Shown here: piece after piece, positions 1,529 to 52,475 of the stretch
Layout: each line of letters opens with the position of its first letter
Position numbering within the stretch: the stretch's first letter is position 1
Source: Corbicula japonica
Taxonomy: Eukaryota > Mollusca > Bivalvia > Venerida > Cyrenidae
Direction of reading: 5' to 3'
Assembly: GCA_038501625.1 (NCBI GenBank)
Contig: JAZAYU010000117.1
Location: 248,001-312,000, forward strand
DNA length: 64,000 nucleotides
Position numbers and translations under genes: made by a program
Notes under the pieces: model-generated
Told to the model about the DNA's origin: nothing
Database searches by the model: none
Seen by the model: only the letters and a program-made list of their open reading frames with translations

Positions 1529-1635
1529 CTGTACTTTATCCGCAAATGTTCCAACTAGAATGACAGGCGGACCTTCATTATTTCCTTCTACTGCGGAGGA
1601 TTCCCGTATTGCGTTCAGCCAGAAGTTTCCGAACT
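1529..1635 (-). CDS. Exon: Roc G4 segment (VGTFADK)
   Basis: A 107 nt exon, acceptor atatttgacag in phase 1 and donor GTACAG/GTAGAA in phase 0. It encodes FGNFWLNAIRESSAVEGNNE, then GPPVILVGTFADKVQ. The helix FWLNAIRE and the strand PVILVGTFAD match the Roc region that carries G4; the usual N/TKxD is here TFAD. The following exons (G5, COR) must start in phase 0 and are expected to the left of position 1, or in the first 1.5 kb where none was convincing. Confidence 0.9.
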
Positions 1636-4600
1636 CTGTCAAATATTTTACATTATGATTTATATAATTTCAGTATAGAGAATTTGATAAAACATATCAG
1701 AATTTTGCTAGTAATTAAAAAAACAACAACAATATCTTTCTGTGTCGTTAATTCTGTGTATAAACATTTCGTATTGTAAATGGAAATCCTTTACATACTG
1801 TGGTTTGCGTCTCTTATCAATAATTCCTGTAGTTATTTAACAGGATTAAAATTATATTGTATAACCGTGGCTATAGACTTCCAAAAATGGGTTGCACAAC
1901 AAAGATGACTTTGCATCATTGCAAGGCCTTAAGTGTTATTGCAGAAAGATAGGGCAACTGTCGTTTCCATGCGTCTTTCTCGAGATCTTGAAGTTATTTT
2001 TCACACAAGAGAACACATACATGTAATTAGTGCGTAGAAGATTATTGTTTAAACATTACAAATTCAAACATGGTAAACAAGTACTATATACTTTCTTAGT
2101 TTTCGAATAACGTGTAATGATGTGATAATGGGATGTATCACTCTCTTAGAACTAGTAGAAATACTATTTGTTTCTGCAGCCACACTGCTTAATTAGCTGA
2201 CTATCAGTAATTTACTGCGGTGTCCATTTTAGACCCAATCATTTCAGCAGTTCAAATCGCCGATTGTCAGCCATTGTACTCCGTGTCAATTCCGCTACTG
2301 ACCATGTGACATCGTTGACTGTAAGTAATTGGCTGCTAAGAAAATTCTGCTTACAAGCAGTTACGGCTGTTGACAATCAGTCATTGGCCGCTATGTCCTT
2401 TTCGCTGCCAAGCAGCTGAGTGTGTTGCAAGTAAGTCATTGACCGCAGCGCAATTACGCTATCATTTCGTATTGATGTCGTCGGCTGTCAGTTATTGGCT
2501 TATGTGTTGCTCCCACTACCACCCACCAATGAGTTTCTTTTACAAGACACATTGTTTATTTCGATACCAAGCAGTTAATGTGTTGATTTTCCCTAAATTC
2601 CACTGCCATCCAAGGCAGTTGACTGTAAATCATTGGAGACCAAGAAACGTCTGCTTCAAAGAAGTTAATGTCGTTGACAGTCAGTCGTTGACCACAGTGT
2701 GCAATCCGCTATTGAAACCGTTACGATCGTGACTGTAAGTTATTGACAATTCCGTGTCGATTCCGCTACCAAGATGTTAACGCTGTAGATTGTCAGTAAC
2801 CATGAAGCATGATCTTTGACCGTCTGTTATCGACCATTGTGTCAAAGCCGCTGCAAAATTAAGGCCGTTGAAAGTCAATCTTTAGCTGACGTTTTAATGC
2901 AGCAGCCAAGTAGTTAAGATCGTTCACTGACTGTGATTGATCCTTTTAATTAACCCAATCACATAACAATCAACGTAATATGCACCTTCGCTACCAAGTT
3001 GGGGTTGTCGACATTAAGTCAGAGGACTTCTATGTCAACTCCGCTTTCAAGCAGTCCATTGACTGTTGTGTCGACTCCTCTGCCAAACCTTTTAGGTCGT
3101 TAATCAATTACGGTATCGAACTGTCAAATAATTGGCCGCAATGTCGGCCCGTTACCAATTATTTAAGGACTTTAACTGTCTTAAAGTAACCGACTTATCA
3201 TTTCTGCCAAATAGTTACATTTATGAGCGTTTACCATGTCAATTTCTCTTCAAGCTGTTGAAGTCGTTTACTGCCAGCCTTTAGCCGCCATGTCAATAAC
3301 GCAAACACATTATGGATGTTGACAAAAAGGTCATTTAATGCCGTTTCAATGCCACAGCCAACCATTAAAGGCCGTTCATTGTGAGTCATTGGCCACCTTG
3401 TCAAAGTATTTTTTGTTGTCTGTCTGTCATTGGCTGCCAATTTTAATTTCGCTTCCAGACATTAACAGCCAGTCATTGGCCGCAATGCCAATTCCGCTTA
3501 CAAGCTGTTAAGTTCGTTGACTGTCAGTCACTGGCTGCCATGTCAATTCCGCTTTCAAGAAGTTAAGTTTGTTTACTATCACAAATTAAGTACTAAGTAG
3601 TTACGCTGCTAAGCAGTTCCGTTGATTGAGTGTCGTTCGATGGTCGTTACCTCTCGGTACGTAAATCATTGAAAACCATTCATGTGAAAATTAAGCATCT
3701 TTATATTAAAAAAATACTTGCGTTAACATATTTATACATTTAAAATGATGGTATTACCTGATAGATTCCACTGTCTTCTGCCGGTAAAATCAACATAGCA
3801 GTCATCATTCTCTACGATATCCCAGGGTTGTTTTGATAAATCGGTAACCAGAAGATAGATTGTCCTCCAAGACATGAACACCTAGTCAACCGAGAATAAT
3901 AAACAATATTTAAGTGTTTCGCAGTTTGATTAGGCTACAGATCTTATACGCATGCATGGAAATTAATATAAAATATACCTCAAACTTGTTGCTAAATTCA
4001 TAGTATATATTTTAAGTTGTGAAGATTTATTACAAATTAAGAAGCAACCATTGTAAGATACGCATGTACCTGGATAAGAAAAACTGCATTGTAGCATTAA
4101 AGTTTTTTTGCAGGAAGGTAAATTTAAATCAGTCGTAAATCGGTTCATTATGCAATTAAAGAAAAAAAGGTAATATTTACTTTATGAGTTACATGAAACA
4201 GAACATTTTATTGATATTTTACAATGCTATGCATCCCTTAGTGGTGAGCACCTCTCAAGGTAATCGCTTTGCTTCACTCTTTGGTTGCACAACATAGCGG
4301 GAGTTTCAGTCTATCGAAGGTTATTTTTAAATCTTGTAAATAATTTCTGGTTCCGAAAACTTGCGTTGATATTTGATATATTGTTTAAATCCAGGTACTC
4401 CAGTACCGGAAGTCATCTTTTACCTACTTCTGTCGAGAACATCACGAATTTACATTTTTGACATGTTGAAAAAACACTCCGTTTAATTTATATTTGTAAA
4501 GTAGGTATTTAAATCTGTCATATAAATGCATATTAATAAGGTTCTACTGCCGATAACACGGTTACTATTATTACCTTGATTTTGACACAAATGACAACAA

Positions 4601-7600
4601 CGAAAGCAAGGACCCAACATATGCAATTTAGAAGCAGGTTTGATGAGGAGTTCAAACCATTCTCAAGTTATTATCTAAACAAATTATTTTATATCATCTA
4701 TTTCAATATCATAGTAGCGTTGTTTGTGCCGTTTGGCGGCTGTAAAAATTATCTTCGTACAATCAGTCAGTGATGTTATCAGTTACGTTTTTTGAAGTTC
4801 GCTGAGCTCGATACTTATGTACAATGTAAATAGTATTTCCAAAAGAAATTGTTTAAATATTTCTGCCAGTTTTAGAATGGATGGTTTCAATATCCTAGCT
4901 ACTATAGATTTGGGTATTGGTCAATCACCTCAATGATATACTTTATGCTTTTTAAATTGTGCACATGGCGTTCTCAGTGATATGTGTTTACATTACTGCC
5001 CATCAACAGGCACAATCAAACAGAACCTGCAATGTTTTCAATTTGTCGTGTTCGGTGACTTTCAAAGTGCCATTTTCATCAGTTTTTTAAGTATTACCAT
5101 GACCTTAAGATGAATCTCCACGACCCTTAGTATAAAGCCATGCAATGTCTCAAAACAATCTACATGCGCGCCAAGTTTGCTGAGGATAGCTCAAACTAGT
5201 GTAAAGGTGGTATCCAAATAAAAAATTGATAATTGTAATAATATTGACCTTGACTTACGCACATATTACGGTTTCCTCATGGGTAACCTATAATACTAAG
5301 CAGCAATAACTAGCCCATTAAGTTTAGTTATAATGCGGAAAAGAAAGTTATATCTTTAGTATTTTAGTAATATTGATATTGAAGCCAGTAATCCAAACTA
5401 TAATGATTTGCGACGACTCAACTTATGCTAATCGCCCTAAAACGATTCCACGAACTATTGTCTAATTTATAGAATTATTTATTATACAATACTGTGAACG
5501 ATTAAAGTTACAAAATTTGCGTCTATCGTCCGTACGTCTATCATGTATCCTGCGTACGTCTAATGTGTATCGGGCGTCCGTCTAACGTGCATCGAGCGTC
5601 CGTATATCGTGTATCGTGCATCATGAGTCTTTTAATTTTATCGTACAATGTGAATAAGTTACTTGCATATGCAAATTTATATGATTTAATTTCAACCATT
5701 CATCTGATATTTTCATAGCATTTTCAAATGTTTAGAAATCTCGTACTCAAATTATATGAATCGGCAGTATCGTTTATAGTGCGTCTACCGTGTATAGTGC
5801 GTCCGTCTATCGTTTATCATCTGTCCCTCTACAGTGTATTGTGCGTCCGTACATCGTGTATCGTGCGTTTCGTTTGTAACCTTGAACCTTCACAGTACAG
5901 TATCCGCGATTTATAGAAAAACACACACAATATAAATATCCATAATATAATTTTACTATCAATACCACATTGTTTTGATTCATAATGAAGTCCTTTGTGC
6001 CACACCCTGTCAAAAGCTTTGGAAATGTCGCAGAAAATCATCCCTATATATTGTTTAGAGTCTATTGTTCAACAGATTTGATGGTATATTTCAATAAGTT
6101 GTTATACAGCAAAATAACTTCTGAATCCACTTTGATTTTTGAAAATGAGTTCATTGAACTGCAAGTGGTTGTAGATATGCTTATATATAATTCGTTCTTG
6201 AACTTTTCCTTAACAGCTTAAAAGAGATATAGGTCTGTAATAAGTGGGCGTATCCGCTTCACCCTCATAAACAATTAGAATTACATTCGCGGTTTTCCAG
6301 ACATCAGGAAATACACCATCTTAAAGAGAAAGATTGAAAATAATGCAAAGCGGTTTACATAATAATTTTGATGTAGATGTGAGCATTTTTTTGGCTTATT
6401 CCATCCCGTCCAATAGCTGTATCTTGATTTAATAAAACATCACATATCTCTTGTTCTGATATCATAATATTATCTACACTAGTCAAAAGTTCTAAGTGCA
6501 CACTTGATAAATGTTAATTTTTCAAATTATTTGATTGAATCTTTCAAAATAGTGTTAATTAAAATGAAGAAGAATCAGTATTCTATTAAAGCACACCAAA
6601 AGATTTAAGTCTGCCTAACCAGATTAAAAAATAATAACATTTTAGCTCACTTGTACTCAGAGAGCAATTCTCAATTTAATTATTATTGCATCGGCTATAA
6701 TTTGTGATCGTTTTCACATCTCTGTAAAATTTAAATTTCATGTAAATTTAAAGGAAATAATGTAGTTTTTCATTCCATTGCACTGAAATTGCTTCCTGTA
6801 GCTTTTTAATGGTCTGCGGGGCTTGATGAGCCAACGCACTTTTCTCTATTTTATCCATAACGTTTATACAGGATTTCAAGGAGAAACTTCCATGTTTTTT
6901 CACAATGTTTTTTGCCAAAAATTTTTGAATTGTCAAGCAGTTTGGGATGATGCAATTTTCTATGATAGATGTATAACAGCCTTTCCGAACGAAAAAAATG
7001 TATTCATTTCGATAAAATTGACCAGTTTTCGGACACGCTTTTTGTCCAAATAAACGTCATTTTCGAATAATTCGCTTTTAAAGTTTATTGAATTTCTATA
7101 AATTTTAGTTTTAAATTTTTATTTATTGAACACTTATCCAACATATGCTACACTAATATTTTCGAGTTTACGTTGTTTTACGTAAATTTTTAAAGACGTT
7201 ATTGAGTAACGTCAGCGTTCAACGTCAGCAACGTAATCAATCTAGAAAATAATATCGTTTGATTTTCTTCTTAAATTAATAAAATATGCAAAAATAAGGT
7301 ATTACTTTTGCATTTACGAAAACCGCCAAGATTTTTTACAACAAAATTGAACTTGTGCCAGTGAAAAGAATTTTGACAGCAATGTCGTTGTCTGCTGACG
7401 TCAACCGTTGCATGGTTACAATTTGTTGGTGTTTTTTTTGTGTTTGTCTGGAGTCGGTGAACATGTGAAAAACAAAAACGATTGTAAAAAAATAAATTTC
7501 GATTGCCGCACGGGAATAACGCATAAATAGCGTATGCCGACGTGGATGACGTAATGCATAAAACATATGCACGGTTTTCAAAAAAATATTTTTGTTTGAT

Positions 7601-10600: not shown

Positions 10601-13600
10601 AATAACAAAAATTGAAAAATTTGTCGTAGCGTCAATATCGCTCATTCCAAAACGAGATGATCGGTGGATTTTATAGTAGTCTTGCATATTATTTGCTTGT
10701 AGGTGGTTGTCATTCACGGCAGCGTTCATAATTACTGAGTTTTCGGTGTAACAGTAATGAAATGTGTGGGATTGTTCTGGTTATGTCAAAAAGCGATATA
10801 CCAGGGTAACCGTTGACATTTCCGACTGTAGTTTGAAAACTTCTTTGATTTTTTCTCCGAAGTAAACTTTTTCTTAGAGCTAGATAAATTTTCAATAAAT
10901 TGCATAAGCGTTTTGTTGGATAAAAATATTTGAAAAAAATTGAAATGACTTTAGAAGAAATATAGTAATTTTCAAACGACATCTCTTAACGACCTTGTCT
11001 ATGATAAGTAACCAGATACAAAAAATAGAGCATTTATTATTTTTTTAAGAAAAAGAAAACGTTCATTGCAATCTGCTGTCTGGTTGACTGGGGTGGGAGT
11101 GTCGGAGGGGGGCACCAATGTACGATCATTCCACCTGTGTTTGTGGCATGTTGTTTATCAGATACAACGACAGTTTAATATTGCTTAAATTTCCGCATTG
11201 GAAAGATTGGTCGGTTTCTAACCAACTCAATATGATGAAACTATTAACATTCTAAATTTAATGGAAAGTCAATCGTTTATGACAAAACTTTAATTAATCC
11301 TGCTATAAATAAAATGAGTTTGCAAATTATTTCAGCAGCTATATATGCGTTTATAACAAAAACCTGGTGTGTATCGTAGAATGCATACTGCCCGGCAAAG
11401 TCCCAGATTGACACTTCAGCTGTGTGCAGGTCCGAATCGGGTAGCTGCTGAATTTCCTAAATGGAAAACAAACATTTATAAATTATATGAAAACAAAAAT
11501 ATAGAACGATATTATTTATTTGGATGAGACGTTCGTTTGTCAATTAGATGTCAAAGAGAACGTGATCGAACGCAAAGTCCGAATTATCACTTGATGTTCA
11601 CATATTTTGTAGACCTAGTAAATAAAAAAAAATCCGAAATTATTGTTACCATGTGAGCATAGAACTTACAAAAGTTACCGAACCGGTATGCTCCATTTTA
11701 CAGAATGAGATGGTTCTTAAGATAATTATACTTCATGTACATGTCATTACCTAATCGTGTCGCACACCTTTTCTACTTGATAATATTTCTGTTAAATTTG
11801 GTACCTCTTATCCTAAACATGTAAAAGGCATACCTATTATTACTACTTGTGCACAATTTGTTGGTGATCTGTTTTTATACTGTTACCTTTTTCTACTTAA
11901 AAATCAAGATTACATTGTTACATCCCTTAAATAATTCTCAGAAGTACATGTATACAGATGATTTGTTAAATGTAGACAATAACCCATTCCCATCTTTGGT
12001 AAGAAAAACAGATCCCGTTTAACCGAGGCTTAATAAAGCAAACAATTTAGAAAAGCAAGCACACTTTCTTGATCTAAACCTCTCCAATGAAAATGATTTC
12101 ATAGCTACATTTGTACTATTATTAATTTATACCTATTAGTAACCTGGGTCAAAAATAATATTTATATAAAATTATGATGGTTGAAATTATATCTGAGTCA
12201 ATTACATAGCAGTTGTTTTCATATAAGTTTTCCAAAACTATATAATATTATCATGATAATGAGTTCTGAGTTCGTTTTTTAGTCTATTTAGTAAATGTTT
12301 TGTCCAACATTTAATGGTAATCACATATAGTTCGATATTGATTTGTTTAAAGTTTGGAGGTAGGTCTGACCAACAAAGTCAGAGGCAAATAAAATGATAC
12401 CAATCTTCCTGATAAACTACTTACAAGTGGAACTTTAACGGACAAATATACTCCTTGTTTTTTCCCCCAAAGACCGAATGTCACACAGGTTTTTCCTTTA
12501 GTGAGGTATGTTCACATGGTGATGTTTTCGGGTATAGAAATTGCAAAAATCGCTTTCAAACCTATCCTCATACAATTATTTGTCGAGTCGATTATAACCA
12601 GAAGTTTTACAGTTGATTTTGTGTTAACTCATACAAGGCAAATTATATGTAGGCTGCGACTGTTTTGTCAGTTCAAAATCTGTTTAACATAATTGTGCAG
12701 GAACAGCCCGATCAATGTTCATACAAGCCTCCAGTTAAACAATAACCAGTAAATAATTCTTTTCGCAATTGAAAAAGAAAAAGTGTTGTTATAAAGGCAA
12801 TAAATATTTGAGTCTCCAAACGCCTTCAAGCTGCTGTAAAATCAGCCTAGATCTTTTAAAAGTTTGAAATTATTTGTATCTTAAAGACAAAATTAAATAG
12901 TATTTTAGTTATCTCTAAATTTCCAAGCTTAAGTTCTTTGAAGGTCATTGTACACAATAACTATGTATGTTTATAGTTTATCAAAAATTACTTTGTATTA
13001 ATATTTCGGTCGTTTTTCATGATGGGTGGCTTAAATATTATTCAGTCATCCCTAGGATATACTTCGTGGTTTTTAATGTTGGTCTTTTTAACGTTCTAGG
13101 TGATATACAGGATTTATAATCTCCTGTCCTCTGTAACCATTCTATTTTATATAATTCGGCACTTAGTTTTCTCGTTTATGGCAAACCTATTCTTTTATCA
13201 TTGGACCATACGCCGATTATCACGGAATGGTGTAAATCTAAAAATACCGCACAGAAGGCACAGAAGGCCCCATGTTCATCGCCATATGCACACCATCGGT
13301 TTGGATCGATCAAAATTGTACTGTTAATGGATAAAATATTGAGTTGCGCTCAACCTTGAGCTAGGCGGCCCACGCAGTATCAACCATTTTTATTTCTGGC
13401 CATGAACAGACTCAATTAAACCGATAATTTCATATGTGTCATGTTCTGTGGATTAAGGTTGAAACCACTAAGACAACTTGCATTTGTTTGCTGATTTGAG
13501 AACCTGTCGGGGCAAGTGTGAGGTTGTACACCCGAGAACCTGTTTTAAACCCACAGCGGCAACTTGTTTTGTCAATAAACCTTCCCAGGCGGTAACCCCA

Positions 13601-16600
13601 TGGGTTCTCTTTGTCGTTAATTGTTTGTGGTGTCTTATTTGAAATTGATATTCTTATAAGCACTTGCTCTCTTTCCCTCTCTAAGAGTTCGCTGCGTTGG
13701 GAGGCTTTGCTTTCTGAGTGCGCCGATTCCTGATATGCATACTCACTTTTTTCAATGTTCTCATTTCAGATATTTCTGAAATATTTTTTATATGTCGAGC
13801 CGTAATTTAAGTACTATTCTTACGCGTAATTCGTCTTCTCGTCTTCTGTTTTCATTCTCTGAACTGCTTTCATCTTCTTCGACTACATTGTCTAACTGAC
13901 GACTATTTATTGTTTTATCCGCTGCAATTTCGTTTTCAGTGGGTTGTCTTTGAAAAGTTTGAACGTCTTTTGTAAAACATTCTGCAAAAATAATAACAAC
14001 AATTTAATATCAGTGATGTAACTATTTGTCTATTGTTCAACAACTTTAGAAGCGGTAACATCGCAAAAGAACATTAAACTGAGCCATTAGTATAGTTCGT
14101 GTCTCCAAAACTATAATAATTACGTGCAGATCGTTGTTTTGTTCTATCATTTGAATTTTTGACATGTTTACATGTACATGTAGTCGCTTTTAAAGTTACG
14201 TTTCAATCTATTGTAATATGTATGAAGATTTCTAGAGAAATCATGAAAAGAACGCATAAGATATTATCTGTTTCAGAAAACCATTATGAAATGTATGTAG
14301 CTCAAATGTAATTTAAACCCGTCTTTTGGAAATAACTGTATCCTAGCATATTTGTATCTTCAGAGAAAATCTTGCAAAATGAAATACTGATAACTCCAAT
14401 CATATAACGCATTCTTTGTAATACTTTCAACTATCTTCTTCCTCTATAGACAGAATAGCAATTGTGATTTATTCTCAATAATAAACAACATAGACTATAG
14501 TCAAAAAATTGATCTATAAAAATGTGATATGAAATTAACATGACGGATTCCCAAGTTTGTGTGCTTACTGATCAAAGGAAGTGCCCCGCTTGTTTTAGAA
14601 CCATGTGCGGCAGACCGTATTGATCTGACTGTTTGCATCAGGCCACACCCTTAACATGTTCGCACATATCGAGTGCTTTACTGTTCAAACTTATTTATAC
14701 AGTATTGAATACTCAATATTGAATACTCAATAAAAATAAATACACGATAAAGTACAACAAATCACCTTGTCTGTGCTTAATTGTATAAAGTTATACAAAC
14801 ACAAATACTTATAAATCATGATCATGATAAGGATTGGAGTGATTCATATATTTCAGCATTTATCCGGCAATTTTTTACAACTTTCGGATCCCAATATCAC
14901 TCGTATTCTAATTCATTTTTGGTTAAAGCAGAGCTTATACGTTGGCGTGTTTAACGCCCATTTCAAATTAGTTTCAAACATCGAATTTTATCTTTTATAT
15001 CTTGAAATCTGACTACTTACTCATAAGCAAACACGATTGCAGCTTAATTTTAACCAAAAATCAAATGTTGCAGCCACGATCTATCAAAAACCTGGGTCTT
15101 TTAACATGTTTAATGTAGAAATACCCTTTTGAGACACTATGTGACACGCTAGTGGACGGGTTTAATTTGAGAATTGTCGTTTGAAATTAGCTAATCAATT
15201 CGCCATTTTGATCGGAACGCATGATAAAATACGAAATCCGAAATCAGATCAGGAAATTAATGGCTGATGCGCGATGCTCATACTGCGAACATTGTTTTTG
15301 AAGATATTTTAAAAACGAGATAAATTTATGTTGCATAAATCCAAATTAAATTGAAATTCATTAATAGAGATTCATCAAGTATAATGTTTTGGTCATGATA
15401 ATTATTATATTAAAAATCAGAATACAAGTTTTATCGATGTCTTTTAAACATTCGATATATGCTAAATATTTTAGAGGCGTAAGGAACTGTTATTTGAAGG
15501 CATGTGTGCACGAGATTAACGACACTTATCCCTATGTTGAGGAATGTGGTGTATCCTGATTGTGGAGTTTAGAGGCAAATATCCTTTTAAAAAATAAACA
15601 TGTATACGACAAAATTTTCAGCTTTTAGAATGAAAAGCGATTCGTGGTAGGGATGGTTTTATATGGGATACACATTATTATACAGAATCATCAAATTGTC
15701 TCCACACGCTCGGCGTGTAAAACAGTCTGTCAACAGTTTTGAGTTCATGACAAACAAAATCTGTGACTAACATTTCCACAGTGTGTAACGTTAGATAACA
15801 ATGCTGTGAGATATTAACCAGATATATATCAGACGTAAAGGTAATTTCATGTAACAACAATAGCTATAAAAGAATTGCAATTATTGTAAGTGTTATTTAA
15901 AAAAAACGATGCGTACCTGGTGAAGATGGTCTATCGTAAGCATCTTGTTGCTGTCTATGTTCACTAGAAAGTTGCGAATTTGGTTCGTTTGATCGTTCTT
16001 GAATGATTTCATGGGACGATTCTGATATTACTGCAACAAAAGATTCTTAAGTTAGAAGTTCGGCGCTCTCCTTATTAAAATACATTGAACTGTCTTCATC
16101 AGATAAAATCTAATATGCAATCAGTAAATTGATCTCAAATCTATATCTTCCGTTCTGCATACGTTCGCCCAGTTTTATCTGTAAAACAATTAACAGGATA
16201 AGTATCGATTAAATGCTTTCTAGAGAATTATATAAGTTTTTCGGTGAAATAAAAGTGGTATTTTCACCGTTTTGCAAACAGTGAAATACCACTTTCATTT
16301 TCAGGTTTATTTCACGTTGGTACCCAAACACACATAAAATTACGAATAAGGACAAAAAGAAAACGGGTTCAAGTTTGGGTACATGTATATGACATGACGT
16401 AACGTTATAAACAACCGTTTTTGCGCCATTGAATGCAGATTTTCTGTTAGATCACGCAAATTGTGCACTAAAAGCATAACTCAAAAAAAGTAAATTCAGG
16501 AAAGATAGAAACATATTTCGCTCGTGAACTCCGGAATTATGTATGTACTCACTCTGTGAATTTAGATGTCTATCTTAAGCTGGTAAAAACAAATATCCTA

Positions 16601-19600
16601 ATAGTATATAAACTGCATTGAACTCGCTTGCATATAAATATAAAATATTAACTTAACTTGTGTTTCAACTGTATCACAACCGGCGTAACAGGCACAGCCA
16701 GGAGCAATCGGCACACTCAGGAGTAGACACGTAAGTTTTTTCATATTTGACAGCAGTGTAAGTAATTACAAATTTCGCTGTTTCTTTATATTGGAGCGAA
16801 ATATCGGCTAATTTCATATGCCAAATAAAATCTACACTTTTCCGTTAATTTGTGAAATGGTAGAAGGAATATTTAACATTTTATCGCGATTTTAATTTAG
16901 AAATTTGTGTTAAAATCTTGAAGTTCTGCGTTTTAAAGCAAAATTCTCCAAAGATCTGATAATACAATTATTGTTACAATAATGTTACACTGATGTTACA
17001 AGTGTTACAGTGCGTGCAGAAATGTGTCAGGTTTAAAATTAAAAATGAATGTTATAATGTTAAAAATTAAAATGTTACAATGTTACAGAGATTTTGGGGA
17101 TGATGGCTCAAAAAGTAAAAATATCAATTTTCAATAGATTCTCAATACGTTACAGTGATGTTACAATAATGTTACACATATGTTACATGTGTTACAGTGC
17201 ATTCAGAAAAGTATCGATTTTATCTGAATGTTACAATGTTACAGTGATTTTGAAGATTAGGGCTCAAAAAGTAAAAAGAAAAAAATTCAATAGATTCTCA
17301 ATGCGTTACAGTAATGTTGCAATAATGTTACACTGATGTTACAAGTGTTACAGTGCGTGCAGAAATGGGCAAGGTTTAAAACCTTAATGTTACAATGTTA
17401 CAGTGATTTTGAAGATTAGGGCTTAAAAAGTAAAAAGATAAAATTTCAATAGATTCTTAATGCGTTACAGTAATGTTACATTAATTTTACACTGATGTTA
17501 CAAGTGTTACAGTGCAAGCAGAAATGTGTCGGACTTGAAATCTAAAAGCGTTAAATGCATTAATCTGCAATCTTGTAATTTCTATCACATATATGTTACC
17601 TGTGTTACAGGCAGTTACGTTTGTAACAAATGCGCAGTGTGTCGGTAATTTAGACCAATTCCGTGCGCTATAGATGGACTTTTACCGATATTTTTGTTTT
17701 GATGGAAGCGCAGGTTTGTTTTTGAGCGCTAGTAATTGTTCTTTGTATAGATGATGGAGAAACAGGCTAGCCAAATCGACAGGATAATCGGGGATAATAT
17801 TCATCTTATGATTAGTCAATGAATATTTAGTAGTATGCAGTTAGTTTATGTCGATTTTCTCAATATAATGGATTAAAGAACCTTATAACCTACATTACTT
17901 TAAGCGGCGGACTTCACGACGGCATGACTTCTCATTCATAATATTGAATGCCATTTGCATATCTAATGAACTCGGCCGCGTAGCTCGCTGTAATGTTGTT
18001 CTTTGCTTGTTGGATGATGGTTTTGTCCTGATCGGTTCAAACTACATCCGAAAGTACAAAAAGCACTTAAAATTCTTAAAATGTTGAGCTTGTGGTGTCT
18101 GCATAAAATTTAAGCCTGGTTTTGCTGTCACCGCAGAACCTTTTCAGCTGAATACGCATGTGGGCGCAATAATATTTCAAAAGCGCGTTCGATTTCTAGC
18201 GCCAACATTCAAAAAACGGTGCGAACCTGGTGAAGATGGTCTATCGTCATCATTTTGTTGCTGTTTATGATCACCTGAAAGTTGCGACTTTGGTTCGTTT
18301 GATCGTTCATAAATGATTTCTTCATGGGAATTTTCTGAGATTTCTTCAACAGAAGATTCTGAAAAGTCTTCATTAGAAGTTTCGGCGCTCTCTTTACTGT
18401 CATCAGTATATTGATCTAAAATCTTTTTCCTCCGTTCTGCAAACTTCTGTCTAGTATTATCTGTAAATTAATTAACAAGACAAGTATAGCATGCATGCTA
18501 TGTGGTGGAAATGGAAAAGTTCATAATTCACCAATAACGGTATACCGTTGTAAATAACAGTTCAAAATATATAGTCTATTGTATGAAACTTATAATTGCA
18601 TAAAACATTGTGTTCCTAATCCAGTTGTGCATCAAAGTTATCTTTCTTAAATTTGGCACAAAAGGACCCAGAAAACTAACCGCATTTTAAATGTGTGACC
18701 TAAATGCTTGAAAGTGGAATACGATCTTTCTTGAACTAGGGGTATCCCACCCAGGGGAATCCCATTTTAGAAAACATATTATTCCCCTTTCAGTTTTAAC
18801 AATAACAATTTCTATGCGCTAACCCGATTCTTAAATGCAGTGCAGCAAGGTCGTAACTCCGCCCTAAAAGTAGTTTTTATCCCAGAGTTCCTAGCGCCAA
18901 CGTACGCAGGTCATGTCTTGGACAGTGAACTGTGTTTTATACATTGTAGAAAACGGGCTCAAGTTTGGATATATATGACGTATTGACGTCACGTCATAAA
19001 CAAAAGTTTTTAGCGCAATTTCACGCATTTTTTCTATCACATTCTAAAACATTATGCACTTAAAGCCTAAAAACAAAATTACCAGTGAAAGATAGAAATA
19101 TATTTCTCTCGCGATGTTCGGAATTGTATATTTTCACTCGTGGGTTCGCAAACCGTGAAAATACGAATTCCGGAGCTCACTCGGTAAAATATATTTCTTT
19201 CTCACTTACTAGACAGAAAAATCTCTATTTTTAGCCGTGTGAGATTTCCTTATCTCACATGGCCTTATCTTACACTCCGCGTGCTCGCGTACTTCGTATT
19301 ATTGCGCACCATAATAATTGAGCACTTTCATTATTGATTTAGACTACGTCATGATGCTTATTTCTACGTCATTTAAATTTGTAAAGTGACGTAATTAAAC
19401 GAATGTTTACTTTTTCAAACATAGCAAACTGTTGACTTTGTTTTATCAGGATTTTGTTCAAAAATCATTTGGAAAGGATACACTCGGAGGTTGCTTAATT
19501 CTTAACGCTGGAACTCGGAAGTGTTTATCGTGGTATGATCTGCAAATGCTACTTTTTAAGTGTTTCATTCTTATACCGCTGTTGCGAGATTCGTTAAACA

Positions 19601-22600
19601 TCAGGATCTATGAAGAAAGTGAATGGAAAATAAAATAGGAAATATACTGCTGTTTAATCGGGATATTTCAACTGGTACAATCAATTTTTTTAATTGTGAC
19701 GAAATCACGGATAACCTTAAAAATCGCAGATCCTTATCCGTTTTCAACGGATGAACCAGCTGTTTTAATGCCATGAAAAAAACGATTCTTTTCATTTCTT
19801 TTATTTGTACCGATATTGTTGAAGGCCTACATGTTAGGGTTGTTAAACTTTGACAGGACTGTGTATTCGTGGCTGATTTACCGTCCCTACTAAAAGTTAC
19901 GCGAAAGAAATAGTTCTCTAAAATTGTTTTTTTTTAATGTTATAGAATTTTGTGTGAATCTTTAAGAAGTAAGTGAGACAAATAATCAATCATTGGTATT
20001 CGGCGACGATCGCGGTATCCCAACCCTCGGGCAATGCTTTCCAGACACAAATTCGGCACAGACTCGTTTCCGTCTGGAAAGCATTACCGTCGGGTTGAGA
20101 TGCCTTGATCTTCGCCGAATACCAATGATAGATTCTCTTTATCTTATACTGGTAAAAACAAATATCCTCTATATGTTTGCGACGGTTGTTCTCTCTGAGT
20201 TACGCAGGATGACTCCAAAGTTATAACTCAATTTTTAACCATGCATTCCGGTTGTGTAAACACAAGGGGAGAAACACCTCGAGAAGTTACTTGCATGTCC
20301 GCTCAAAATATGAAGAACGTAGACCTGGTTTGAGACACGCATTATAAGATAAAAAAAAATAACACAATAATATCATAGTAACATTTTTTGACTTGTCGTT
20401 ATCTGTTGTTTTTTTAAGAAATGATCTATTAATTTTGTTTCGAATGTATTTATGCATGTAGCAGTAAATCTATAAATAGAGATCGGGTACCCTGCCTTTT
20501 TTTATATCCGTTAGTAAAGAACAGACACCAGTTAGTTGGTGTTTCCGCTCTCTGCAGAAGAAACGTTGTAACACCTTGCAATAACGTAACAATCTTGCAT
20601 GTAATAAAATTTATTAACACAAGGAATTTCCATAACCGTTAGGATATATTTCAATTCCTACGGCAAAAGTCTCTAATTTAAACGGCTTTTTACACACAAA
20701 AAATGCACTTTTTTAGTCCCAGTCACTCAGACGCTCTGATTTTGCAGAGGCGATCAGTACGTCTAAAGACATTGTTTGTTCAAAAATCGGACGCTTCACT
20801 TCGGCAAGTAAAGAACACACGCTACATCAAAAAAGTGTTAACATACAAGCGACGAAGAAGAAATGGCAGAAACGAAATTGATGTAATACTTAGCAGATGC
20901 TTATTTTGAGAGTTATACCTGTATGTGCTGTCCACTTGCCATCCAGAAGATTTACTGTCATTTTACCAACATGGACATCAATCCCTTCTGTGGGCACTCG
21001 AGTGTCAATCTCTACATCTTGATTTAATAACCGCTTTGTCAGAACCGTTTTGCCCACACCACAGTGCCCAACGATCATCACTCGAATGTTATAGACCTTT
21101 TCTTGTCCTTTTGCTAGCGCTGTTTTGTATTGGTCGATAGCAGTTTGATCCATTCTAAGAATTTCTAATGGAAGTGTGCTCCCTACAAATAAATTTAATA
21201 AAAGTAAATCACAAAATATGCTTGTATTATTGGGATACTTAGTCTACTTGTTTTTAGAATTGGTTGAAATCAATGGGATTTATAAAAAAGAAGCCGTCAC
21301 GGTGCTAGAAATAATTATCTCATATTCAATCAATAATTTAATAAATTTTATTCCGATTTGAACTGTTTAATGTGTGTGCCTTTAAATTAATGCAAATTTG
21401 CTGTCACATTAAACAAAAATCCTTAGTTTTTTTTCTATGACATCATCTGTTTTCAAATAGTATAGTTGCCATTTTGAATAATTTGCATAGCATTTATTGT
21501 TCTTGGGTATCAAGTAGCGATGAAAAGTTATAGACAGGAGTCTAATAAGAGCTTGCAATAGTAGATATAATTTATTGCGAAAAAAACTAATAATTTTGAT
21601 GTTGGAAAACTATAATCACAGAATACATACTTTTATATTTTTTGCTTATAATTGGAAATAAAAAAAGGAATTTATGAGATTGTTAACATATTTGAAATAT
21701 TACGTGATGCTATGTTCTCACTTTAAGCATATTTGTTATCTAACTAAATTTGTGTAAAACAGCAACATCGAATACAATACAAAATACTACATGTATTCCT
21801 AATACAAGCATACCTGTTTTAATTGCAAATGATGCATCCGACCTGTCGATATGCAAACCATGTAAAAGTGATAATGTCGGCGTTGTATTGATCACGTTCA
21901 CAATCGTCCTCCACTCCTCCCTGGTTGGTCCATTACACTTTTTTACCTCCACCGTGACCGCATGTTGCAGCTGGCCGACACTGAGTAACAGTTCTCTCCA
22001 CTTAATAGACGACATTGTGACGGAGGATAGCTTCACATGTTCTAGCTGCGTCATGTCAGGTGAGAAGCGCGGTATGACGTCACCCATATCGATGTTTTTA
22101 AGCTGGAGGTGCTGTAGCTGAGTTAATGTAGGAATGATCATCTCCTGGCAGGATGTCATCCTGCATAACGTTAATGATGATAGGACCGGTGCCGAGCGTA
22201 GATCTTGCCACAATGTGGCGCTGGCTCTGGCTGTCATCTTCTCTCCCCATGGCCGGAGCTCGAGCTTCTCCAGACATGCTGGATTCACGTGGAGCTCTCT
22301 ACATGGTACTTCATCGAGATGCAGTATCTTCAGCTCGTTCAGACGATGTAGGTCCAAGGTGACGTCACAATCACGGTACTGACCCCTGTGGTCCGAGCAG
22401 TTTATCCCCTCCAGCTTGAGCTGTGTCAGTGTTGTGGTCTGGTTGATATAAGCATAGAGACATTTAAGGTTACTGTGAGTCATCTTAACGCTAACAAGAT
22501 ACAATGATTGTAAGCATGTCAGTCCTGTGAGCGCCGTTATACTGATATCGGACAGAGAGATACCTGGCCATACTGATGATGATAGTGTCAGACATTTAGT

Positions 22601-24417
22601 GTCACGGGCTGATTCAGTGAGGATGTCAGCCAGCCATACTGGTTCCTTGTCACAGCGTTCTACTCTCAATGTCTCCAGGGAGGTGAACACACCAGGATCC
22701 AGCGACTGCATGAACTCTGTTATCTGATCTGGATCTAATAGTTGTAGCGATTTCACGTTACCTTTATTAAAGTTGATAATGATTTTCAAACTTGTTAAAT
22801 CTTCTTCTGTTAGGATGTAATCGTGAAGATGGATGGAACAACTATCATTTCCATTTCTCACACTTTCTTGCAAACACTGGACCTGCATGGACTGGTAAGA
22901 TTTCATTGTTCTCCTATCGTCATAATCCCTATCCATGTATGTTCTATAACGACGCGTTACATCGTCAAGGTCAACGATCGTCTGCAGCTCACCGGAAATA
23001 CATGTATATACTTCCGGATTAATACCACATACAAAAACAAACAGATTTTCCATTTCTAATATGCTTGAAAGCGATGAACAATCTTCAAGAATAGTTAATT
23101 TTATAGTTCCGTTGTTCCATTCAGACACAATGTACAAGGCAGCCATATATTCCTGTATGGATTTATGTTGAAAGAAAACTTGATACCGCTTTACTGAGAC
23201 TTTACTTCTGTCCTTGCTTTGACTCAACAATCCGATTTTCAGACAAAACTCGAGTTCCTTCTCTGTTAGAAATTGCAACACAGTTGTGCTGTCAATCACC
23301 AGGCTGGATTCTTTTATCTTCTGAAATAAAGTAAAGAACGATAACTTCCCCAACTTTAAAAGTAAGTTCATATACTGATTACACAACGCGTTATGTCTCA
23401 TACATTCTGGGACTGTAAAGTTACGTTCCGCGTTTCCAGTAGGAAGGATTGGTGCATTTTTCTTGTTCAAACCCCGCTGAAGTGTTAATTCAATAGTGTT
23501 ACTGTACGTTTCACATTTCGAATTGCCGATGCCAAGGCCATCAAACCAGATACAAATAAGCTGTAGTAAGATGTACGGAATTAAACGGATATATCCGAGT
23601 TTTACAGAAGATACTTTTCTGTCAAAGTCGTTCAGATCGGGCTCCCTTTCGCCACTGTTTTCGCTCAGGAGTTTAACGGCATTTAATTTCAATTCATTAG
23701 AAGTTGTGTCGTCGAGCAGGGAGATTTCTAGATGTCGGTCGATGAGGTTCGGCGGTAGCCCTATAGTACTAAGCTTCCAGGGCCTAGTAGTGGTAAGGAC
23801 GGTGCAGTTCCCGCGATAGTTGTTGTGCGGTATTCCGGGTGTTCGCGTACAAGTCTCTGGGTGGACCCACTCGTCTAGTCCATCGATAATGACCAGACAA
23901 GTTTTATTTTGTAAGATATTTGCCGTAAACTGTTCTGAATATTGTTCTTTGTTAGGCAAATTTTGTGACACAAATTTGAGAATAAGTTCATCAAGATTGC
24001 ACGTGTCACCCTGAAAGTCCCGCAAGTGTAACAGGAACAAGAACTCGAAGCGTTTTAGTGTATTGTCGTCCTTCCTTTTAAATTTTCTGTTCATTAAATT
24101 GAATGTTTTTTGCGCCTGGCACCATGTCATAGCAACCTTTTGAGTAAAGGACGTCTTCCCGTAGCCAGCGTTGGCCTCAACGTATATATTTTTATAAGGA
24201 ACATTGTCTTTGTTGAGGAACAACTCCCGGTACGACCTGACCGGCGTCTTCTCTGAATGATTGTTGCCCTGCTCAAAGGCATTGGGTTTGTGAAATGCCG
24301 ACATCGGTGGCTGAACGTACAACTCCGTTAAAGGAACAGCATAGTCTTCTACCAGAGGTGAGGCCGGGATCAAGGACTCTTTCTCATTGTAGAGACGTAA
24401 GAGTTCGTGTTTAAATT
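1529..24417 (-). CDS. NACHT-LRR-Roc fusion gene, eight exons (partial at both ends)
   Basis: Gene model joining exons 24417-21814, 21182-20919, 18460-18227, 16030-15917, 13981-13824, 11456-11364, 3881-3758 and 1635-1529. Seen in the sequence: each junction has AG/GT, the phases agree at every join (1,1,1,1,0,0,1), and the sum (3698 nt plus one base from an upstream exon) gives 1233 open codons. Known of the families: NACHT proteins are STAND ATPases that oligomerise on sensing a ligand; Roc is the Ras-like GTPase of ROCO proteins and normally follows LRRs and precedes COR. Inference: a cytosolic immune-type or stress sensor with two nucleotide switches flanking one LRR array. The end of Roc and any COR lie off the left edge, and the start codon and any N-terminal effector domain were not found. 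The alternative is two adjacent genes, with the NACHT gene stopping at 21740. Confidence 0.72.
2230..3640 (+). repeat. Degenerate ~55 bp tandem satellite
   Basis: About 1.4 kb of diverged tandem units of roughly 55 bp. The consensus words in order are GTTGACTGTCAGTCATTGGC, CGCCATGTCAATTCCGCT and ACCAAGCAGTTAAG. The best-preserved units are near 3470-3570. It fills the intron between exons 3758-3881 and 1529-1635. The several open frames across it are by-products of the repeat. Confidence 0.88.
3758..3881 (-). CDS. Exon: Roc beta-4 segment after G3
   Basis: A 124 nt exon, phase 0 in (acceptor gttgactag) and phase 1 out (TCAG/GTAATA). It encodes VFMSWRTIYLLVTDLSKQPW, then DIVENDDCYVDFTGRRQWNLS. 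The strand RTIYLLVTDLS directly continues the previous exon's THQ, as in Roc domains (THQVF...IYLLV.DLS). A 7.5 kb intron filled with repeats separates it from the G3 exon. Confidence 0.9.
4800..5075 (+). repeat. Dispersed repeat family R1, copy 1
   Basis: Shares with 9925-10490 and 12930-13450 the words CTCGATACTTATGTAC, TTCNGCCAGTTTT, CAATCACCNCAANGATATACTT and a tail GCCCATCAACAGGC...GAACCTGCAAT..TTGTCGTGTTC. This copy lacks the middle of the element. It has no open frame. Confidence 0.75.
5518..5870 (+). repeat. CGTCCGTCTATCGTGTAT minisatellite, two blocks
   Basis: Imperfect ~24 bp units built on CGTCCGTCTATCGTGTATCG at 5518-5625 and 5765-5870, separated by about 140 bp of AT-rich sequence. 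The second block abuts the broken 3' end of the retrotransposon reverse transcriptase, so array growth may have replaced its end. Confidence 0.7.
5865..6474 (-). pseudogene. Non-LTR retrotransposon, reverse transcriptase part (decayed)
   Basis: On the minus strand the frames give ISEQEICDVLLNQDTAIGRD, RPISLLS, FKNQSGF and FCDISKAFDRVWHKGL, the ordered N-terminal motifs of a non-LTR reverse transcriptase. The FCDISKAFDRVWHKG segment holds the first catalytic Asp region. In-frame stops and shifts break it, and the catalytic FADD part and 3' end are missing. It continues the endonuclease part at 7700-8885, split by a younger transposon at 6477-7697. Confidence 0.88.
6477..7697 (-). mobile_element. 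Tc1/mariner-type transposon, copy A, with intact ends
   Basis: A 1221 bp element with terminal inverted repeats of about 29 bp, CACT(A/C)GTCAAAAGTTCTAAG and onward, at both ends. It is flanked by TA at 6475-6476 and 7698-7699, the target duplication typical of Tc1/mariner elements. It is inserted inside the retrotransposon and is therefore younger. The minus strand carries a degenerate frame ending PQTIKKLQEAISVQWNEKL, which resembles the C-terminal helices of DDE transposases; no complete catalytic domain was seen. It is probably non-autonomous now. Confidence 0.86.
7700..8885 (-). pseudogene. Non-LTR retrotransposon, endonuclease and linker part (decayed)
   Basis: Minus-strand frames give ESIKTESLKREGFNLMYRKD and SGGILIYV (8835-8557), then VITTSTQITERTSTLINPIV, DVSHHNAKF and WYNKRADFNSLN (8505-8251). 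These are the order and motifs of an APE-type endonuclease, with the terminal SDHxA motif altered to SHHNA. The linker that follows (about 8100-7700) still shows fragments such as KTHDQ, YWKL and STVADSN across frameshifts. It is truncated at its 5' end near 8885. Confidence 0.87.
9392..11152. repeat. 1.8 kb fold-back structure with long imperfect arms
   Basis: The left arm, about 9392-9730 (words CCACCCCAGTTTAA, AGTCAACCAGACAGCA, TTTTTGTATCTGGTTA, ATGACAACCACCTACAAG, ACCGATCAT), returns as its reverse complement at about 10640-11152 (TGCTGTCTGGTTGACTGGGG, CTTGTAGGTGGTTGTCAT). Between the arms lies R1 copy 2. It sits in the 7.5 kb intron between exons 11364-11456 and 3758-3881. No transposase frame was recognised. 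Confidence 0.8.
9925..10490 (+). repeat. Dispersed repeat family R1, copy 2 (longest)
   Basis: Fullest copy of R1, matching 12930-13450 over most of its length (GGATATACTTC, GATATNCAGGATTTAT, TTNTCGTTTTNGGCAAACC, ACCATACGCCG, GAATTGCGCTCAACC). It forms the loop of the fold-back at 9392-11152. The 105-codon open frame here is not shared in frame with the other copies and is treated as chance. Confidence 0.78.
11364..11456 (-). CDS. Exon: Roc G3 segment (WDFAGQ)
   Basis: A 93 nt, phase 0-0 exon with acceptor ccatttag and donor CACCAG/GTTTTT. The product starts EIQQLPDSDLHTAEV and continues SIWDFAGQYAFYDTHQ. DFAGQ is the G3 motif (DxxGQ) of Ras-like GTPases, and the following YxxTHQ is typical of Roc domains, where the next exon continues with VF. 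There is no start or stop, so it is an internal exon. The match in domain order with the P-loop exon upstream and the exon at 3758-3881 downstream makes this one of the best-supported exons. Confidence 0.9.
12930..13450 (+). repeat. Dispersed repeat family R1, copy 3
   Basis: Third copy of R1 in direct orientation, about 3 kb from copy 2 and directly abutting R2 copy 2. Word order and spacing follow copy 2. It lies in the intron between exons 13824-13981 and 11364-11456. Confidence 0.76.
13447..13775 (+). repeat. Dispersed repeat family R2, copy 2
   Basis: Matches 1087-1372 in order and orientation (AAGACAACTTGCATTTGTTT, GAGAACCTGTCGGGGCAAGT, ACCTGTTTTAAACCC). It ends about 50 bp before the donor side of exon 13824-13981. 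Confidence 0.75.
13824..13981 (-). CDS. Exon: third acidic linker exon inside Roc
   Basis: A 158 nt exon with acceptor atttttgcag and the strong donor CGC/GTAAGA, phase 1 in and phase 0 out. The product starts CFTKDVQTFQRQPTENEIAA and ends with an acidic run VVEEDESSSENENRRREDEL and a final Arg. It converts the phase-1 series upstream to the phase 0 needed by the next Roc exon, which is the main reason to accept it. No domain is recognised. Together the three linker exons would add about 168 residues to the Roc fold. Confidence 0.66.
13982..15916. other. Intron, no further feature recognised
   Basis: AT-rich intron between linker exons two and three. Scattered short open frames (for example 14818-15012 and 15678-15860) have no recognisable motif and no paired splice sites in a usable phase. 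Confidence 0.6.
15917..16030 (-). CDS. Exon: shortened duplicate of the acidic linker exon
   Basis: A 114 nt symmetric phase 1-1 exon, acceptor cttttgttgcag and donor CCAG/GTACGC. It encodes ISESSHEIIQERSNEPNSQL, then SSEHRQQQDAYDRPSSP, matching the second half of the exon at 18227-18460 almost residue for residue. The first half of the ancestral exon (16031-16178) is still visible upstream but has an in-frame TAG and frame damage. A new AG, absent at the same place in the sister exon, allows the intact half to be spliced alone and in frame. Its coding status is supported by phase and by conserved reading frame; skipping would also leave the frame intact. Confidence 0.6.
16031..16178 (-). pseudogene. 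Decayed 5' half of the duplicated linker exon
   Basis: Aligns with the first half of the exon at 18227-18460: the ancestral acceptor (ttgttttacag) and the following ACN-GNN...TATGCAGAACGG are recognisable. The frame then meets TAG after the AERKI stretch and carries an insertion. It now acts as intron sequence for the shortened exon that follows. Confidence 0.65.
16240..16560. repeat. Upstream flank of duplicated exon, with hairpin
   Basis: Contains an inverted repeat (AAAGTGGTATTTTCAC at about 16252-16267 against GTGAAATACCACTTT at about 16281-16295). It then shares with about 18940-19140 words such as AAAACGGGTTCAAGTTTGG, AAGATAGAAA(C/T)ATATTTC and TNCGGAATT. This shows that the duplication that copied the linker exon also copied upstream intron. 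Confidence 0.68.
16950..17620 (+). repeat. TGTTAC-rich minisatellite, ~160 bp period
   Basis: The block GATGTTACAAGTGTTACAGTG recurs near 16994, 17180, 17336 and 17498 (steps of about 156-186 bp), each followed by GNGCAGAAA..G and then ACAATGTTACAGTGATTTTG. About four diverged units. It lies in the intron between linker exons one and two, and the open frame at 17094-17336 is a by-product. Confidence 0.85.
18227..18460 (-). CDS. Exon: acidic Ser/Glu-rich linker inside Roc
   Basis: A 234 nt symmetric phase 1-1 exon between acceptor taatttacag and donor CCAG/GTTCGC (GT present, otherwise a weak donor). The in-frame product begins NTRQKFAERRKKILDQYTDD, a basic helical start, then turns into a Ser/Glu/Asp-rich stretch (KESAETSNEDFSESSVEE) and ends QNDDDRPSSP. 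No domain is recognised. It falls between Roc beta-2 and the G3 strand, so it would form a long disordered or helical loop there. The codons stay open over 78 codons while the surrounding intron is full of stops. A related exon lies 2.2 kb downstream (16030-15917). Without RNA evidence the exon status is an inference from frame, sites and the paralogous copy. Confidence 0.72.
18940..19240. repeat. Sister flank of the duplicated exon, with hairpin
   Basis: Matches 16330-16560 (see there). It also holds an inverted repeat of TATTTTCACTCG against CGTGAAAATAC at about 19133-19180, a hairpin of the same design as that at 16252-16295, and TGAGATttccttATCTCA just after. Confidence 0.66.
19991..20127. 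repeat. 137 bp near-perfect hairpin (fold-back MITE-like)
   Basis: The left arm begins CATTGGTATTCGGCG and contains AATGCTTTCCAGAC. The right arm returns GTCTGGAAAGCATT and ends CGCCGAATACCAATG. The stem is about 55 bp with a few mismatches and a loop of about 25 bases. It lies in the intron between the Roc P-loop exon and the first linker exon. No clear target duplication is visible outside CATTGG/CCAATG. Confidence 0.88.
20919..21182 (-). CDS. Exon: Roc GTPase N-terminal part (G1 and switch I)
   Basis: A 264 nt symmetric phase 1-1 exon. The acceptor tatttgtag lies before 21182 and the donor ACAG/GTATAA after 20919. It encodes a short LPLEILRMD lead-in and a helix (DQYKTALAKGQEKVYN), then the Ras-fold beta-1 and P-loop IRVMIVGHCGVGKT (G1). 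TEGIDVHVGK follows, whose Thr is the likely G2 residue, and beta-2 ends in VNLLDGKW. This is how Roc domains of ROCO proteins begin. The exon cannot be a complete GTPase; G3 and G4 lie on exons 9-19 kb further downstream. The preceding NACHT exon ends in phase 1 (G/) and this one starts with GG, joining cleanly as Gly-Ser. The exon also holds an in-frame ATG at 21153, so a separate Roc gene starting here cannot be excluded. Confidence 0.88.
21183..21813 (-). other. Intron joining the NACHT-LRR and Roc exons
   Basis: A 631 bp intron, GTATGC at the 5' end and tatttgtag at the 3' end, AT-rich and without repeats. It contains the alternative stop of the NACHT frame at 21740 and, about 165 bp beyond, AATAAA (plus-strand TTTATT at 21571-21576). 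Retention or premature polyadenylation would give a NACHT-LRR-only protein. Confidence 0.6.
21814..24417 (-). CDS. Exon: NACHT NTPase plus leucine-rich repeats
   Basis: The open frame runs 24433-21740 (897 codons). Residue numbers follow that frame. Residues 6-50 hold a linker common before mollusc-type NACHT domains (SPLVEDYAVPLTELYV). Walker A is at 87-95 (ANAGYGKTS); the usual first Gly is Ala87. Walker B is LVIIDGLDEW at 180-189, with Asp184, Asp187 and Glu188. A sensor-like TTTRPWKL lies at 214-221. The motif FFQHKSIQEYMAALY (420-434) is the conserved helical motif that ends NACHT-associated regions. Degenerate LRRs fill about 560-860 (LQSLYL, LTQLKL, LKILHL, LQHLQL). The start at 24417 rests on an acceptor (gcttccag) giving phase 1; an ATG start at 24433 is possible. 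The donor at 21814 (ACAG/GTATGC) is phase 1, so the exon is symmetric (2604 nt). Without splicing, the frame adds about 23 residues and stops at 21740. Confidence 0.93.
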
Positions 24418-24476: not shown

Positions 24477-24636
24477 TGACATAATGAATTTTTTATTAAC
24501 GAGTTTTTTTTCTCCCGGTACGACGAGATGCGTTTCCTTTTTGAAGGTTTGTTTCCCTGCCGAAAGGCATTAGGTTTGATAAACGCCGAGATCGGTGGCT
24601 GCACGTATAATTCCGTTAACGGAACAGCAAAATCTT
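24477..24636 (-). pseudogene. Truncated copy of the NACHT exon start
   Basis: Reads EDFAVPLTELYVQPPISAF and IKPNAFRQGN, clearly copied from residues 29-56 of the main NACHT exon (EDYAVPLTELYVQPPMSAF). It then diverges at SSYRE, loses the frame before any Walker A motif, and stops. It sits about 40-60 bp upstream of the acceptor of the intact exon, so it is a tandem partial duplication. A polypyrimidine acceptor (cttctgtttgacag) precedes it, so inclusion as an alternative cassette is possible but would truncate the protein. Confidence 0.8.
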
Positions 24637-24659
24637 CTGTCAAACAGAAGGCCACTATC

Positions 24660-26949: not shown

Positions 26950-26951
26950 TA

Positions 26952-27986: not shown

Positions 27987-28540
27987 TAAAACAGGCTCCG
28001 GTTTATCTTTGCGAATCCGGTTTATTCGCAAACTCAGCTACCCGAAATAGTGGACATATCGGGTTTATTTTATCATATGAACATAGTTTAGGCTCAAACT
28101 AATAAAAATTGGTTGATTTTCATCAATTATCTCTGAAACTTTGGAAACTGTGGTGGGTTTTACACCAAAATCGCCGCGGCGATTTTGAAAACGCCGCGGC
28201 GTTTTTGCGTCGCCGTAAAATCGCCGCGGCGAAATTCCGCCGGATTTTAAAAATGGCGTTATATCTCCGCGGCGATTTCTTGTTAAATTTTAAAATCGGT
28301 TCATACCCAATTCAGTATGATGGGACGTTTGGAATACACACTGCTGCAAAAAATTATCTCTATTGGAGCATTTTAAAAAATCGCCGCGGCGAGTTTCCGC
28401 CACATTCAAAGCTGCGATTTTCCGCCGCTTTAAAAGCGGCGGTTTTCCGCCGCTTTGAAAGCGGCGTTTTTCCGCAGCATAAAAAATGGCGATTTTGTTT
28501 AAGCTTAAATAGTTGCAATATCTCGCCGTTGTGATACAGC
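27987..28540 (+). repeat. GC-rich palindromic repeat family, copy 1
   Basis: Starts AACAGGCTCCGGTTTATC and TTCGCAAACTCAGCTACC, then carries many self-complementary words: GCCGCGGCG (at least five times) and CCGCTTTNAAAGCGGC. A reverse-complement copy lies at 56692-57208. The 141-codon open frame here and its counterpart there share the VDFH.LSLKLWKLWW start, but it breaks down in copy 2, so it is taken as non-coding. Confidence 0.84.

Positions 28541-30784: not shown

Positions 30785-31140
<356 letters not shown>

Positions 31141-41281: not shown

Positions 41282-41330
<49 letters not shown>

Positions 41331-42665: not shown

Positions 42666-42706
<41 letters not shown>

Positions 42707-47745: not shown

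Positions 47746-47780
<35 letters not shown>

Positions 47781-52424: not shown

Positions 52425-52475
<51 letters not shown>

Follow-up and report, generated by a model that had tools for sequence, protein, structure and literature searches.

A candidate gene joining a NACHT domain, LRRs and a Roc GTPase in one reading frame in the bivalve Corbicula japonica

In a contig of Corbicula japonica, we found a chain of exons in which a NACHT domain, LRRs of the NLR type and a Roc GTPase follow each other in one reading frame. A single gene that contains all three is the best-supported gene model from the sequence, and we consider it likely that this is an animal gene whose parts were joined by exon shuffling. 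We favour one gene because the open tail behind the NACHT-LRR exon (21813-21740) looks non-coding, the donor in front of it is strong, homology to the Roc exon begins before its first ATG, and no open reading frame (ORF) with ROCO-type LRRs was detected in the window. A COR domain would probably follow the Roc domain beyond the contig end. If the one-gene model is right, a single LRR array lies between two nucleotide switches.

The DNA that was analysed, here called the window, is 64,000 nucleotides long. The chain from 24417 to 1529 consists of eukaryotic exons on the minus strand, so that the gene reads from right to left, and it is real at the coordinates in Table 1. The earlier note on this DNA had described eight exons with matching phases and 1233 codons that place NACHT, LRRs and Roc in one frame. 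The shared frame holds: joining seven of these exons, that is, all in Table 1 but the optional second insert-exon copy, yields 1194 codons with 0 stops, and the phases agree at all junctions. The codon count has to be corrected, since with the AG acceptor in front of 16030 the eighth exon adds 114 nt and the total comes by arithmetic to 1232 whole codons. Splice sites were scored with a matrix of generic base frequencies; on this scale, the acceptor at 21182 is ordinary (top 15.5% of AGs), and the acceptor at 1635 (-4.0, top 41.9% of AGs) and the donor at 11364 (-2.6, top 22.2% of GTs) are weak.

Table 1. Exons and other features of the putative NACHT-LRR-Roc gene, in the order of transcription (positions in the window).
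Feature	Position	Strand	Phase	Remarks
Decayed duplicate of NACHT-exon start (nt 68-194)	24512..24638	-		Directly upstream of the NACHT-LRR exon
NACHT-LRR exon	21814..24417	-	1-1 (phase 1 at both ends)	2604 nt, 867 open codons
Open frame past the donor, stop included	21740..21813	-		74 nt, reads as intron
Intron joining NACHT-LRR to Roc	21183..21813	-	1	631 nt, GC 0.258
Roc exon 1	20919..21182	-	1-1	LPLEI linker, G1 GHCGVGKT, G2-like PTEGIDV
First in-frame ATG of Roc exon 1 (residue 10)	21151..21153	-		Inside the conserved linker
Acidic Ser/Glu-rich insert exon	18227..18460	-	1-1	Between G2 and G3; could be skipped in frame
Optional second insert-exon copy	15917..16030	-	1-1	114 nt still open
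Acidic insert exon	13824..13981	-	1-0	
Roc G3 exon (VSIWDFAGQYAFYDTHQ)	11364..11456	-	0-0	Roc-COR HMM E 2.4e-5; PDB match to LRRK2 Roc
Roc exon VFMSWRTIYLLVTDLSK...	3758..3881	-	0-1	Roc-COR HMM positions 104-120
G4-like exon (PPVILVGTFADK)	1529..1635	-	1-0	Recognised by motif and phase; last exon before the contig end

The NACHT domain is detected in the first exon by Pfam (35.9 bits, E 8.7e-9, cut-off 26.7) and covers residues 79-215, when residue 1 is counted at 24415. Within the domain, we take ANAGYGKTS to be a Walker A-like and VIIDGLDE to be a Walker B-like motif. LRR-like motifs follow at about residues 554-856. Across residues 541-868, LxxLxL occurs 6 times compared to a shuffle mean of 1.16 (p 0.0012) and Lxx[LV]x[LIV] 11 times compared to 2.92 (p 0.0004), and in the same residues the most permissive pattern, [LIVM]xx[LIVMF]x[LIV], does not reach significance (13 compared to 8.37, p 0.06). 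The Pfam LRR models stay under their cut-offs on this exon (LRR_4 15.6 bits, cut-off 27); NLRC4_HD2 (14.7 bits, cut-off 33.1) and LRR models match behind NACHT below threshold and in the order expected. We take these LRRs as genuine, yet divergent or degenerate, on the grounds of the motif counts. The earlier claim that the NACHT is followed C-terminally by LRRs is thus borne out, by Pfam for the former and by motif enrichment for the latter. A single-sequence AlphaFold2 model of the exon reached a mean pLDDT of 36.7, which is too poor for a fold search. By sequence, the exon has 0 matches in the PDB, its LRR part has 2 at chance level (E 0.95 and 1.4), and the viral contigs that were scanned with the exon contain no relative.

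Immediately upstream of the acceptor at 24417, there are in-frame ATGs at 24433 and 24427, at either of which the protein could start. The duplicate next to the exon is decayed and is still recognisable by blastn (79.5% over 127 nt, E 1.5e-26) and by tblastn (70% over residues 21-64). Upstream, no N-terminal effector (CARD, death, HEPN and others) lies above cut-off in the three minus-strand frames of 24420-64000, where short divergent exons could escape. These Pfam scans used a threshold of E 0.01 in one run and of 0.5 in others; they gave a chance-level match to Phenol_Hydrox (E 0.17), and the same method recovers the NACHT.

The NACHT exon very probably ends by splicing, because a strong donor is followed by a fall in GC content and by intron-like codons. 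Of all GTs on the minus strand of the window, the donor after 21814 ranks in the top 0.3%, and it is the best of three donor-like sites that score >2 in 22040-21735. The GC content is 0.47 over the final 300 nt of the exon and falls to 0.284 in the tail; 85 of 2530 same-size windows inside the exon are as low as the tail. The in-frame codons of the tail score -0.402, which is lower than all 843 24-codon windows of the NACHT exon, each of them left out of training; of 2000 non-coding windows free of stops, 88.5% reach or exceed this value. A coding reading of the tail was rejected on this codon score. The intron itself has no Pfam match in three frames, and its 6 poly(A)-signal-like motifs (A[AT]TAAA) are not clearly enriched over the shuffle mean of 3.07 (p 0.085).

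On the other side of this intron, we compared the Roc exon to the best 80 of 130 confirmed prokaryotic genome loci, which were among at least 587 pattern matches. In 68 of these 80 loci, the homology begins no later than residue 4; the count rises to 69 when starts up to residue 9 are included, and in the other 11 it begins later. The pattern used for scanning sat in the P-loop and thus outside the linker, although the ranking by E-value still favours loci with a matching linker. The archaeal Roco structure 4wnr aligns from residue 4 of the exon (E 0.0013), and for five of six plasmid records the alignment starts at residues 2-4 (E 5e-4 to 0.1). The last LRR in the prokaryotic relatives ends just upstream of the point where the Roc exon starts. 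After 5 loci with fewer than 40 open codons upstream were dropped, 75 remained; 68 of these have an LRR motif no more than 80 residues upstream, and 67 have a PxEI-like linker. In the prokaryotic LRR-Roc loci, a conserved linker of the form PPLEI...Y...LYEAKLLIVGE stands directly after the last LRR. Because the Roc exon starts with the LPLEI stretch, which in the relatives connects LRR and Roc, it would be expected to have LRRs in front of it. An independent Roc start at 21153 was discarded as the main model, since the homology of the relatives extends upstream of this ATG.

We then asked which LRRs the window has to offer. An HMM of the prokaryotic upstream LRRs gave no significant match among the 2073 six-frame ORFs of the window, and none of these ORFs matched a ROCO-type LRR pattern. 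The NACHT exon is one of the two best ORFs for this HMM (8.8 bits, E 0.15, which is also the best E-value), so that LRRs of the ROCO type were not detected in front of the Roc. Besides the NACHT exon, at least two LxxLxL occur in 12 ORFs, of which 7 lie on the minus strand; all 12 were rejected as LRRs, as by eye they are short or of Leu-rich low complexity and show no regular repeats. By these searches, the NACHT exon, which lies 631 nt upstream of the Roc exon, is the one LRR candidate found in the window. When an LRR-Roc HMM was run across the junction, the fusion scored 59.8 bits compared to 58.9 for the Roc exon alone, a score that was reached by 61 of 200 NACHT-part decoys and by 31 of 200 shuffles. 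The segments for this HMM were cut relative to the exon start, which sets the boundary column by construction; this does not apply to the failure upstream of it. The junction itself is, by this comparison, without positive homology support. That the HMM stops at the junction can mean either shuffling at a domain boundary or separate genes.

Separate genes would imply that an NLR gene ends in the intron region and that a ROCO gene starts near 21153, with the joined frame open because the phases happen to agree (about 1 in 3). The uncrossed junction, the poly(A)-like motifs of the intron and the in-frame ATG at 21153 are consistent with two such genes in tandem. We nevertheless regard them as unlikely, as the tail to 21740 is non-coding-like with a strong donor before it, the homology of the Roc exon extends upstream of the ATG in 69 of the 80 relatives (the best 80 of 130), and an acceptor AG precedes the Roc exon. 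The earlier note had named two outcomes that would speak against one gene, transcripts that end at the 21740 stop and Roc transcripts that start near 21153, and both are disfavoured by the sequence evidence above.

It seems less likely still that the LRR exons of a ROCO gene lie beyond the window and that the NACHT-LRR exon is a cassette in an intron of that gene, skipped in some or most transcripts. As the exon is of class 1-1, skipping it would keep the frame; furthermore, the LRRs before a ROCO-type Roc are expected to be ROCO-type, a type to which the LRRs of the NACHT exon do not belong. However, the window has no significant ROCO-type LRR ORF, and the minus strand upstream has no Pfam match above cut-off.

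Returning to the model of one gene, its Roc half is recognised once the exons are spliced. Pfam Roc scores 23.9 bits on the first Roc exon alone and 53.5 bits (E 3.5e-14, cut-off 27) on the spliced sequence. In the PDB, 29 distinct sequences match the spliced Roc at E <=0.01; these are mostly LRRK2 Roc (best E 6.6e-11) and fall mainly over the G3 part. We also used a Roc-COR HMM of 510 positions that is based on 75 of the 86 prokaryotic Roc-COR loci retrieved. This HMM orders the exons, with exon 21182 at positions 2-78, exon 11456 at 76-106 and exon 3881 at 104-120, and a Roc with G1-G3 is found with 84.1 bits. By this measure, the Roc core is complete up to position 120 of 510. Taken alone, exon 3881-3758 is not significant (2.8 bits, E 4.8); its start falls within the stretch of the spliced protein that matches Pfam Roc best. 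The viral contigs that were scanned with the Roc linker alignment and with the G3-G4 part contain no relative.

The ROCO form of the G4 motif is GTHxD. The last exon of the chain reads VGTFADK at the corresponding G4-like motif, has a weak acceptor at 1635 and obtains -2.1 bits against the Roc-COR HMM, which lends it no support. It is the least certain member of the chain. The earlier observation that G1, G3 and G4-like motifs lie on separate exons therefore stands, with motif and phase as the evidence for the G4-like exon. The contig ends 1528 nt past this exon. No significant match to the COR part of the HMM was found in the six-frame ORFs, and Pfam has no match in three frames of 1-1640. 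The label ROCO-type that the earlier note had used can thus be kept for the Roc and for the linker between LRR and Roc, whereas no COR was detected up to the end of the contig.

The acidic exons form an insertion between G2 and G3. When exon 18460-18227 is left out, the Roc-COR HMM is contiguous across its position, and the score rises from 84.1 bits with the acidic exons to 91.5 bits without them. Judging by their phases, 18460-18227 and 16030-15917 could both be skipped, and 13981-13824 is the only insert exon found that leads from phase 1 of the G2 exon to phase 0 of the G3 exon. The optional copy lies in a decayed duplicate, 15901-16205 on the minus strand, of the insert exon and its flanks (18211-18487; blastn 71.6% over 317 columns). 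A longer version of this copy, 16178-15917, was rejected as a whole exon because it has stops in all three frames.

The surroundings of the gene are rich in repeats. Two inverted repeats of 89-93% identity were observed, one with copies of about 1 kb at 6635-7699 and 26950-27988 that flank the NACHT and the first Roc exons, and one with copies at 27989-28281 and 56913-57205; Pfam has no match in six frames of 26700-28300. In the intron after the G3 exon, 5829-8856 on the minus strand contains broken frames (e.g. FCDISKAFDRVWHKGL at 6068-5829). By its resemblance to such elements, we presume that this region is a decayed non-LTR retrotransposon; Pfam has no match in the single frames scanned there. 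Another intron of the Roc half contains a TGTTACA-rich tandem repeat of about 156-159 nt (16969-17547). Upstream of the gene, many dispersed and tandem repeat families, some of them 9-nt spaced, occupy 37300-53500, and a long simple-repeat array at 30726-31170 is open in several frames, which read as stretches of Thr, Leu, Tyr or Ser. Scanning the window against Rfam and for tRNAs gave 0 matches each, and Pfam gave 0 in one frame of the first 15 kb of the plus strand. A misjoin in the assembly, or a fusion that has decayed and lost its expression, would suit the repeats and the presence of decayed copies of both the NACHT exon and the insert exon, but it is very improbable given 1194 codons over seven exons without a stop and intact NACHT and Roc G1-G3 motifs.

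The one-gene model could have arisen as follows. A symmetrical class 1-1 NACHT-LRR exon would have come to lie in a phase-1 intron directly ahead of a Roc module, the first exon of which starts at the point where the LRR array would end in a ROCO protein. The LRRs of the NLR would thereby occupy the place of the ROCO protein's own LRRs. Such shuffling would suit the symmetry of the NACHT and Roc exons and the presence of decayed exon duplicates nearby, although these do not prove it. In the protein, provided that both halves are transcribed together, the LRRs may sense a ligand and keep the protein shut. The NACHT would then swap ADP for ATP and oligomerise, and this might cluster or free the C-terminal Roc(-COR), whose GTP cycle would act as a second switch and as the output. 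We tentatively go one step further, in a proposal that we hold with less than even confidence: the gene may encode a double-switch immune receptor, in which one LRR sensor serves both a NACHT oligomeriser driven by ATP and a Roc-COR dimeriser driven by GTP. Such a receptor would have originated when the LRR module of a ROCO protein was swapped for the class 1-1 NACHT-LRR exon, and the cassette exons would tune the acidic Roc loop.

NLRs and ROCO proteins are two separate families that couple LRRs to a nucleotide switch. If our reading is true, two switches can share one sensor, and the gene would be a test case for the gating of Roc-COR by LRRs, which is a question in LRRK2 biology. It would furthermore illustrate how innate receptors of invertebrates can be rewired by means of symmetrical exons.

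Lastly, we compared the gene to known systems. Among the open-access (PMC) matches listed, there is no description of a NACHT-LRR-Roc protein. The term Roc is absent from the main texts of papers on pearl oyster (PMC9646362), cnidarians (PMC8260672), corals (PMC10236652), a ctenophore (PMC11797021), metazoan NLRs (PMC11508797) and amphioxus (PMC2575513). The earlier note had doubted that the order NACHT-LRR-Roc is established in animals. This doubt is weakened by NLRs of the sponge Dysidea avara, as the legend of figure 2 in PMC12909245 names COR among the domains of bona fide NLRs. The likeness to our gene lies in this listing of COR for NLRs; the legend by itself shows neither the domain order nor a Roc, and the combination NACHT-LRR-ROCO may already have been drawn for the sponge in that figure.

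With the NLR family, which includes a large pearl-oyster set (PMC9646362), the gene shares a NACHT with downstream LRRs and tandem duplication, here seen as the decayed copy that adjoins the exon. It differs in the Roc GTPase after the LRRs and in that no N-terminal effector was found. With ROCO proteins of the order LRR-Roc-COR (the archaeal Roco 4wnr, LRRK2), it shares the Roc G1-G3 and a PLEI-type linker between LRR and Roc, whereas its LRRs are NLR-like and preceded by a NACHT, it has a long acidic insert between G2 and G3, and a COR is not seen. Further relevant cases are TIR-ROCO proteins of Aplysia (excerpts of PMC9334734) and proteins of an anemone that combine LRR, Roc and TIR (excerpts of PMC5094078), where a Roc(-COR) likewise stands on an innate-immunity domain in a marine invertebrate; there the partner is TIR and here it is NACHT. 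Shuffling of LRR exons is described for brown-algal ROCO genes in excerpts of PMC11378527. We thus read the gene as a new combination of known kinds, in which a class 1-1 NACHT-LRR exon would have been joined to a Roc module by exon shuffling.
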